From Fidelibacterota bacterium (GTDB taxonomy: Bacteria; Fidelibacterota; Marinisomatia; SCGC-AAA003-L08; D37C17), in the NCBI GenBank assembly GCA_004124405.1, contig SCKP01000001.1, positions 62,001 to 126,000 of the forward strand: a DNA stretch of 64,000 nt. Direction: 5' to 3'. The position numbers and the translations under genes were made by a program. Below, one piece after another: positions 53,800-56,250 of the stretch (position 1 is the first letter of the stretch; each line of letters begins with the position of its first letter). The notes under the pieces are model-generated. The model worked only from the letters and a program-made list of their open reading frames with translations, had not been told where the DNA came from and ran no database searches.

Positions 53800-55446
53800 A
53801 TGGCTGAAAATAATTCCAGTTCTTTAATGGAAAAAGTAATCTCTTTGTCCAAACAGAGGGGATTTGTATTCCAAAGCAGTGAAATTTATGGAGGACTGAA
53901 ATCGGCTTATGATTATGGTCCGCTTGGTGTTGAACTGAAGCGTAATATTATGAATGAATGGTGGCGCTCAATGGTGCATGAGCGTGAAGATGTAATTGGT
54001 ATTGATGCCTCTATCATTATGCATACAAAAGTATGGCATGCTTCCGGGCATTTAGCGGGATTTTCAGACCCCTTAGTAGATTGTCTCATTAGTAAGGAAC
54101 GATTTAGAGCGGATAAAGCACCTAGACCAGTGGCAGGGGATGAACTACCCATTACCTGTGCCGATAAGGGTCAGGCAAAAAATTATGTAGAAGCCATACA
54201 AAAACGCTTCAATATTGAATTGAAGCGCAATGGAAAGACGCTGTACGGCATGAAAGTAATTGATGAAAATACCATGGGATTTTTCCCTGATGGTAGGGAC
54301 AAACCCACTGAAACTTTTCCATATCGGGGATATGTAAGTCCCACTTTTGGAAGCCCATTTCTCAGTGATGAGCGCCAATTCAATTTAATGTTCCGCACCC
54401 ACATTGGTCCAATTGATGTGTTGGGAGATATTACCTCTTATGTTGAAAAAAACAAAGAATTAGATGGGAAGGAACTGAGGACGGGCATAGAGGAAATAGT
54501 AAAAAAATCAGCAGTGTATCTCCGGCCTGAAACTGCCCAAGCCATGTTTGTCCAGTTTTTAAACTGTCAGCAATCCATGAGCATGAAAGTTCCTTTTGGC
54601 ATTGCTCAAATGGGAAAGAGTTTCAGAAATGAAGTTACGGTTGAGCATTTCATCTTTCGTTCCTGTGAGTTTGAACAAATGGAAATGGAATTTTTTGTAG
54701 AACCGGGCACCCAGAAAGAATGGTTGGACTACTGGCGTGATAAAAGAATGGAATGGTGGCAAAGCTTTGCAAATGATCCGAGCAAATTCAGATATCGGGC
54801 TCATGAAAAAGATGAACTGGCCCACTATGCCGATGCCTGCTATGATATTGAATATGAATACCCCTGGGGTTTTGATGAGCTTGAGGGTGTAGCCAGCCGC
54901 ACTGATTATGATTTGAAAAAACATGCTGAACATTCCGGCGCCAAGCTGAGTTATTTTGACCAGCAGAAACAAGACCCGGATACCGGTAAAAACGGCTGGC
55001 GATATACGCCCTATGTCATTGAACCCGCTGCTGGGGTTACTCGTGGACTATTGGTGTATCTCCTAGATGCATACCATGAAGAAACTGTGCCAAATGCAGA
55101 TGGAGAAGATAGTACCCGAGTGGTGATGAAACTTCATCCCAGACTGGCCCCAATCAAAGTTGCAGTACTACCTCTGGTAAAAAAAGAAGGCTTACCAGAA
55201 ATTGCCAGGGAAATGGTGAGCGGATTTTTTAAAGCTGGAATCAATGCCCGCTATGATGAACAGCATTCCATAGGCAAACGCTACCGCCGTCATGATGAGG
55301 CGGGCACGCCTTACTGTCTTACAATTGACGGCCAGACCAAGGAGGATGGTACAGTTACTATCCGGGACAGGGATACTATGAAACAAGAGCGGATACCTGT
55401 TAAAAAGGCAAAGGAAATAGTAAAGGAAAAATTAGCGCTGCATTAA
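53800..55446 (+). CDS. glyS: Glycyl-tRNA synthetase, dimeric (eukaryal/archaeal-like) type
   Basis: 548 residues, class II alpha2 type. The opening LMEKVISLSKQRGFVFQSSEIYGG and PLGVELKRNI, then YLRPETAQAMFVQF, SFRNEVT (motif 2), and YVIEPAAGVTRGLLVYLLDAY (motif 3) are all present. The C-terminal anticodon-binding domain starts about residue 445 (KVAVLPLVKKEGLP) and ends in RDRDTMKQERIPV. No separate GlyQ/GlyS pair is needed. The stop overlaps that of the opposite-strand peroxiredoxin gene (4 bases). Confidence 0.96.
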   Translation: MAENNSSSLMEKVISLSKQRGFVFQSSEIYGGLKSAYDYGPLGVELKRNIMNEWWRSMVHEREDVIGIDASIIMHTKVWHASGHLAGFSDPLVDCLISKERFRADKAPRPVAGDELPITCADKGQAKNYVEAIQKRFNIELKRNGKTLYGMKVIDENTMGFFPDGRDKPTETFPYRGYVSPTFGSPFLSDERQFNLMFRTHIGPIDVLGDITSYVEKNKELDGKELRTGIEEIVKKSAVYLRPETAQAMFVQFLNCQQSMSMKVPFGIAQMGKSFRNEVTVEHFIFRSCEFEQMEMEFFVEPGTQKEWLDYWRDKRMEWWQSFANDPSKFRYRAHEKDELAHYADACYDIEYEYPWGFDELEGVASRTDYDLKKHAEHSGAKLSYFDQQKQDPDTGKNGWRYTPYVIEPAAGVTRGLLVYLLDAYHEETVPNADGEDSTRVVMKLHPRLAPIKVAVLPLVKKEGLPEIAREMVSGFFKAGINARYDEQHSIGKRYRRHDEAGTPYCLTIDGQTKEDGTVTIRDRDTMKQERIPVKKAKEIVKEKLALH

Positions 55447-55913
55447 GTCTGGCTCAGATCGGCAAAATCGTTTAAAATATCCTTGGCGTGAGATTTCACA
55501 GAAACTTTTTCATACACATTTTCAACAAGACCCTTTTCATCAATAATGATGGTTACACGGGAAATTCCCATATATTCTCTGCCCAAAAATTTCTTTTTAC
55601 CCCACACACCGTAAGCTTTCAGCATATCACGACTTTCATCGCTTAATAGTGGATATGGAAACCCCTGTTTATCAGCAAACTTTTTCTGTTTAGCTGGGGA
55701 ATCTGCTGAACAACCAAGAATCTGAATGTTCTGATCTTCATAATTTTGGAATTCATCCCGGAATCCCTTGCCTTCAACTGTTCAGCCGGGAGTACTGGCT
55801 TTGGGATAAAACCATAGAACAACTTTTTCCCCTGTAAAATCTGATAATGACACAGAATTATTATCGGCATCTAATAGAGTAAAATCTGGCGCTTTATCTC
55901 CAACTTTTATCAT
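55443..55913 (-). CDS. bcp: Bcp-type peroxiredoxin, predicted selenoprotein (Sec44)
   Basis: 156 residues, counting an in-frame TGA at 55782-55784 as selenocysteine. The frame is open on both sides of the TGA and the protein is complete: KVGDKAPDFTLLD, WFYPKASTPG-U-TVEGKGFRDEF, LLSDESRDMLKAYGVWG. The TGA falls exactly on the peroxidatic Cys of the TPGCT motif. The usual resolving Cys five residues on is Lys; Cys68 (ILGCSADS) is the nearest candidate partner. GGAG sits six bases before the chosen ATG (55913); an ATG at 55925 is possible. It should reduce peroxides using thioredoxin or glutaredoxin. Confidence 0.9.
55748..55766 (-). promoter_or_regulatory. Candidate bacterial SECIS hairpin in bcp
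   Basis: On the - strand, 16-34 bases after the TGA, GGATTC pairs with GAATTCC (six pairs, one bulged T) around the six-base loop CGGGAT. Loop distance (22 bases from the TGA) and a G at the second loop position agree with known bacterial SECIS requirements for SelB binding. Confidence 0.55.
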
Positions 55914-55998
55914 TTGGATCTCCATTATTATTATAGTTTAGAATTACTTTTCACAATATTGAATGGTTTAAATTACCACCCATTATTAATGAGGAAAA
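55914..55998. promoter_or_regulatory. Shared divergent promoter region of two selenoprotein genes
   Basis: This 85-base AT-rich gap separates the bcp start (leftward) from the glutaredoxin start (rightward). Both ribosome sites lie at its edges (GGAG for bcp, GAGG for grx). Both promoters must lie in or at the edge of this gap; no clear operator was recognised. Confidence 0.5.
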
Positions 55999-56250
55999 AT
56001 GATTAAAATATATTCTACAAACTGGTGAGGGTCTTGCATTGCAGCAAAAAAAGTGCTGGATGACATGGGTTTGTCATACGAAGAAATCAACATTGAAGAA
56101 CAAGGGATCAGCCGAGAAGAACTGGTGAATATCACAGGCAACCATTCTGTACCTCAAATTGTAATTAATGGTGCATTTATCGGCGGATTTGATAAGCTGC
56201 TGCAATTAAATCAATCAGGAAAGTTGAAGGAATTACTTGCCAATAGCTGA
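55999..56250 (+). CDS. Glutaredoxin, predicted selenoprotein (Sec10, UxxC active site)
   Basis: 83 residues when the in-frame TGA at 56026-56028 is read as selenocysteine. The beginning MIKIYSTNW-U-GSC-IAAKKVLDD matches glutaredoxin with the first Cys of CxxC replaced by the TGA codon and the second Cys kept. Later VPQIVINGAFIGGFDKL provides the cis-Pro and the GGxD glutathione-binding motif. GAGG lies four bases before the ATG at 55999. Starting at the next ATG (56065) would remove the first strand and whole active site. It probably supports the neighbouring peroxiredoxin or reduces disulfides. Confidence 0.9.
56042..56058 (+). promoter_or_regulatory. Candidate SECIS-like hairpin in the glutaredoxin gene
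   Basis: CAGCA and TGCTG form a 5-bp stem with loop AAAAAAG, beginning 14 bases after the TGA. Distance fits bacterial SECIS elements, but the loop starts with A's rather than the preferred G. The element is therefore tentative, or a different fold is used. Confidence 0.35.

Follow-up and report, generated by a model that had tools for sequence, protein, structure and literature searches.

We have found that the stretch of 64,000 nucleotides analysed here (the window) carries a bcp gene that very probably encodes a selenoprotein, namely a Bcp/PrxQ peroxiredoxin of 156 amino acids in which selenocysteine (Sec) would be read from a TGA codon at the peroxidatic position. The window comes from a draft assembly (1.66 Mb in 68 contigs, 91.9% complete) of an uncultured marine bacterium of the phylum Fidelibacterota, formerly Marinimicrobia/SAR406, and the named relatives of the bcp gene belong to Candidatus Neomarinimicrobiota, now Fidelibacterota. 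The gene (55443..55913, minus strand) runs from 55913 to 55443 as 156 codons followed by a TAA stop, and its single interruption is an in-frame TGA at codon 44 (55784-55782 as read on that strand) in the context WFYPKASTPGUTVEG. Translated with TGA as U, the product belongs to the Pfam AhpC-TSA family and, when scored with C in place of U, reached 171 bits over residues 2-150 of 156 with the NCBIfam model NF006960 (thioredoxin-dependent thiol peroxidase; cut-off 140 bits). The active-site motif P-x3-T-x2-[C/U] is present as PKASTPGU at residues 37-44. Membership in the PrxU family (NF040737) was rejected, as the product showed only a weak peroxiredoxin match to that model (53.6 bits against a cut-off of 270). 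The first-pass annotation had described an otherwise intact Bcp gene with one in-frame TGA at 55782-55784, placed exactly where the TPGCT motif has its peroxidatic Cys. Translation and the profile score confirm the first point and alignment the second, since position 44 is Cys (TGT/TGC) in 78 homologues; what that annotation had left out was the strand, the adjacent Sec-glutaredoxin and the SECIS-like hairpin described below.

Given a draft assembly of 68 contigs, and with a single base separating TGA from TGT or TGC, the codon might be a nonsense mutation in a pseudogene or a miscalled Cys codon. Codon 44 of bcp is, however, TGA in 40 genomes of the phylum, our own included, a count that covers those members of a comparison set of 60 genomes (same class or nearer) whose bcp gene was read. 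The identical TGA in the 39 other genomes, which reaches down to about 51% protein identity, excludes a sequencing error. Comparison with the nearest relative (G005, 92% identical) gave a dN of 0.010 and a dS of 0.689 upstream of the TGA (dN/dS about 0.015), and a dN of 0.041 and a dS of 0.630 downstream of it (dN/dS about 0.065). Such low ratios on either side show that selection maintains the two halves as a single protein, which excludes a pseudogene, and the hairpin is conserved in TGA-bearing bcp genes only; a mutation or an error is thus extremely improbable. Several genes of the genome have a read-through TGA at Cys positions, which might also point to a genome-wide recoding of TGA, for example to Trp or Cys, instead of a local recoding to Sec. 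This we find scarcely credible, since TGA terminates 11 of the 47 large ORFs in the window, including mnmE, a lipase and a methyltransferase, the glutaredoxin gene with its internal TGA also ends in TGA, and the Sec machinery is present. TGA is therefore a normal stop in the window, and the earlier argument from the same three genes that a change of code is unlikely holds. A scan of the 64-kb window for read-through TGA codons outside the large ORFs returned seven candidates besides bcp, of which only the adjacent glutaredoxin looks like protein when judged by eye, suggesting that the bcp TGA did not arise by chance.

Beginning 14 nt past the TGA, the bcp gene contains a SECIS-like hairpin (55748..55767, minus strand) with a 7-bp stem (GGGATTC/GAATTCC) and a 6-nt loop (CGGGAT) in which G is second, the distance from TGA to loop being 21 nt. 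These dimensions agree with the published rule for bacterial SECIS (bSECIS) elements, which asks for a loop of 3-9 nt, a stem of 4-16 bp, 16-37 nt from UGA to loop and a G within the first two loop positions (PMC13188914). An alignment of 41 Sec genes, all distinct, had 96.2% of its cells paired and the loop consensus CG[G/U]G, with compensatory changes in three of the seven pairs and a disruption of the outermost pair in 10 sequences. None of 500 shuffles matched the pairing and covariation score, and in a control in which the partner was slid by one column pairing was at most 66%. The decisive evidence comes from pairing counts set against Cys homologues and synonymous nulls: the 45 Sec bcp genes form a mean of 6.73 of 7 pairs where synonymous codons predict 5.56 (sd 0.09), whereas the same columns of the 78 Cys homologues form 2.88 of 7 against a null of 2.94, the counts not being independent because the sequences have common ancestry. 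In L052, an orthologue that has Cys in a largely unchanged protein context, only four of the seven pairs are left. All 45 Sec genes encode the loop Arg by CGG or CGT, although elsewhere they use AGA most often for Arg, and this choice gives the loop the start G[G/U] of the published bacterial SECIS model (PMC13188914). By itself the hairpin of the window is not significant under synonymous shuffling (P about 0.10), and its fold energy of -7.4 kcal/mol is marginally short of the guide value of -7.5 (PMC13188914); across the bcp hairpins fold energy relative to shuffles was uninformative (mean z -0.52).

The first-pass annotation had called for a search of the complete genome for selA, selB, selD and tRNA-Sec, and had regarded a genome lacking selB or tRNA-Sec as incompatible with selenocysteine. 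Both are present. The tRNA-Sec (67.6 bits, above the Rfam cut-off) has the anticodon UCA, and selB (404 bits), whose product has SelB winged-helix domains, adjoins selA (455 bits) on contig 68. These three genes, the shared TGA and a SECIS with compensatory changes support the earlier reading of the codon as Sec. The remaining gene, selD, was not found in the 91.9%-complete assembly and is missing also in two other members of the genus. It was above cut-off in 47 of the 60 genomes searched, three of them in the same genus, and each of these genes has one internal TGA. In two members of the genus (L108 and L109) selD is flanked by hemW on one side and by an apaG-like/cysteine desulfurase gene pair on the other. 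In our assembly hemW was not found with a query that lacked a positive control in another genome, and the desulfurase search gave no better match than a 38% paralogue. Since selD is absent together with its flanking hemW and desulfurase, an assembly gap is the simplest reading and likely explains the absence. The succession of selD, the apaG-like gene and the cysteine desulfurase in L108 and L109 may represent a selenium-supply cluster.

Divergent from bcp lies a gene for a predicted glutaredoxin selenoprotein of 83 amino acids (55999..56250, plus strand) with the active site WUGSC. Its in-frame TGA is codon 10 (56026..56028), at the first active-site position of UGSC, and an ordinary TGA stop follows as codon 84. 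The product scored 65.2 bits with the Pfam Glutaredoxin domain (PF00462; cut-off 22.9), and the UxxC motif is present as UGSC. The two genes are separated by 85 bp (55914..55998), presumed from the geometry to hold both promoters, and within this interval weak promoter-like matches only, near chance level, were found. The glutaredoxin TGA is kept (as UGSC or UGPC) in all four members of the genus where the gene was found, the part downstream of it is under purifying selection, and 26 glutaredoxins of other genera have Cys at the active site. In the glutaredoxin tree a branch with support 75/92 (78% of bootstraps) separates the Sec forms from the rest, as would be expected if Cys had changed to Sec once, within the genus. 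Sec was also considered for the glutaredoxins of G013 and G017 and rejected, as the TGAs counted there are ordinary stops and the active site has Cys. A hairpin at 56060..56077 on the plus strand (ATGACA/TGGGTT/TGTCAT) is a candidate SECIS: it forms six of six pairs in the four Sec forms and 0 to 5 in the 26 Cys forms, and its loop, TGGGTT, fits the loop rule and lies 37 nt past the TGA, the published upper limit. A nearer hairpin at 56042-56058 (CAGC/GCTG) is an alternative in which the early loop G is missing.

A resolving Cys five residues past the peroxidatic residue is typical of 2-Cys Bcp/PrxQ members, but not of all members. It is present in 75 of the 78 Cys forms as opposed to 6 of the 45 Sec forms, and the Bcp of the window has K at this position and no resolving Cys there; the three exceptions among the Cys forms are Fidelibacterota genes that reverted to Cys. 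In the mechanism that we propose, the TGA would be decoded as Sec by the SelA, SelB and tRNA-Sec of the genome, along with SelD, which was found in close relatives, and the hairpin just 3' of the TGA would recruit SelB. The Bcp/PrxQ product would then reduce hydroperoxides with a selenol as its peroxidatic group. As the resolving Cys is missing, the oxidised Sec would probably be resolved by an external thiol, giving a one-Sec cycle. The best candidate for the reductant may be the divergently encoded glutaredoxin, itself a putative selenoprotein in this genus, because the divergent pair is found in 21 of the 60 genomes and in four families. This argument from gene association makes the neighbour a possible reductant, about on a par with thioredoxin, and six Sec-Bcps that have a glutaredoxin neighbour retain the resolving Cys, which counts against it.

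It is possible, to a similar degree, that Sec is inserted and that thioredoxin reduces the peroxiredoxin, the neighbouring glutaredoxin having other substrates. Thioredoxin is the reductant of most characterised Bcp/PrxQ enzymes (PMC5811025), the NF006960 model is named for thioredoxin dependence, and the bcp-glutaredoxin pair is split in one family (f4) and in class-level relatives. In a characterised PrxQ, however, the Cys five residues on resolves the oxidised peroxidatic Cys, and thioredoxin did not effectively reduce a variant that had lost it (PMC5811025); 39 of the 45 Sec forms are likewise without the resolving Cys and hence without the disulfide that thioredoxin normally reduces, and the divergent arrangement of the two genes is shared by four families. 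Taken further, the glutaredoxin reading would make the locus a dedicated selenium relay in this genus, in which a Sec-glutaredoxin reduces a Sec-peroxiredoxin without resolving Cys and the Cys-to-Sec change of the glutaredoxin came later than that of the peroxiredoxin; we put this forward tentatively, and rate it slightly below the proposal that the glutaredoxin is the reductant. The six Sec-Bcps with Cys five residues past Sec (L057, L094, L095, L096, L098 and L102) come from two genera and form a weakly supported basal group in the tree of Sec genes. Since they have kept this Cys, they may be Sec-Cys enzymes. The Bcp of the window has a further Cys, Cys68 (LGCSA, 55710-55712), found also in L033, L034 and L040; among the Sec-Bcps read it occurs only in the genus that has the Sec-glutaredoxin, and it might be an alternative resolving residue.

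Peroxiredoxins of the TPGUT type had been cited in the first-pass annotation as established in some bacteria, and the Sec form of Bcp (COG1225, TxxU) is indeed a listed family (PMC9312934, PMC13188914), as is Sec-glutaredoxin (UxxC); both occur in marine metagenomes, and Cys-to-Sec changes are documented for the Bcp and glutaredoxin families (PMC9312934, PMC2398784, PMC1794560). The bcp product resembles the known Sec-Bcps in its Bcp/PrxQ fold, its TPGU and a SECIS after the TGA, but differs in coming from Fidelibacterota, where nearly all members are without the Cys at the fifth position and where a divergent glutaredoxin gene accompanies bcp in four families. It shares family, length and active-site motif with the Bcp/PrxQ thiol peroxidases (NF006960; structures 5enu, 3gkn and 5iiz), from which it is set apart by the predicted Sec in place of the peroxidatic Cys and by the missing resolving Cys. 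Like the Sec-glutaredoxins of Geobacter, Alkaliphilus, Moorella and Clostridium (PMC1794560, PMC13188914), the neighbouring product has a Glutaredoxin domain with U first; unlike them, its Sec form is restricted to one genus (UGSC/UGPC), with Cys in neighbouring genera, and is encoded beside a Sec-peroxiredoxin. As both families are established, the locus is a well-supported new instance and modestly new; its SECIS is clearer than usual, and its neighbour gene is of interest. A survey from 2016 has SAR406 single-cell genomes in its orphan-selD table (PMC5029168), and no paper on the selenoproteins of Fidelibacterota was found in the open literature, most subscription journals lying outside it.

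With this finding, a complete Sec-decoding system and a peroxide defence rich in Sec would be assigned to a major marine phylum that is uncultured. Standard annotation would lose the active sites of both proteins; in the ordinary ORF list of the window, the peroxiredoxin is reduced to a C-terminal fragment of 60 aa and the glutaredoxin to a truncated form of 65 aa. According to the bcp gene tree, Sec prevails throughout the phylum, and two lineages have reverted to Cys. One of these is a family (f6) of five small genomes, all without selD above cut-off, whose two bcp genes read have Cys. With an old Sec gene, relatives that went back to Cys and a recent gain of Sec next door, the locus offers a compact test case of Cys/Sec exchange, and also of why the resolving Cys turns dispensable after Sec has been acquired.

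Other TGA-bearing genes were observed in the genome and its relatives. A more distant peroxiredoxin group (about 40-49% identical) has one TGA in several relatives (G048:C150, G052:C84, G042:C12 and others), which may be Sec or merely the stop. Two genes of the genome itself are candidates for further selenoproteins. The first encodes an AhpC-type 2-Cys peroxiredoxin (G000:C3:16292-16933, minus strand; L021/L195) with TGA at the peroxidatic position (FTYVUPTE) and a downstream hairpin with the loop GTTTA; the TGA form occurs in this genome, G005 and G008, and 17 of the 20 genes read have Cys. The second (G000:C47:9031-9423, plus strand; L219) encodes a secreted-looking fusion of LVIVD beta-propeller, TlpA-like and dockerin parts, in which a UxxC motif is present as SPMUPVC.
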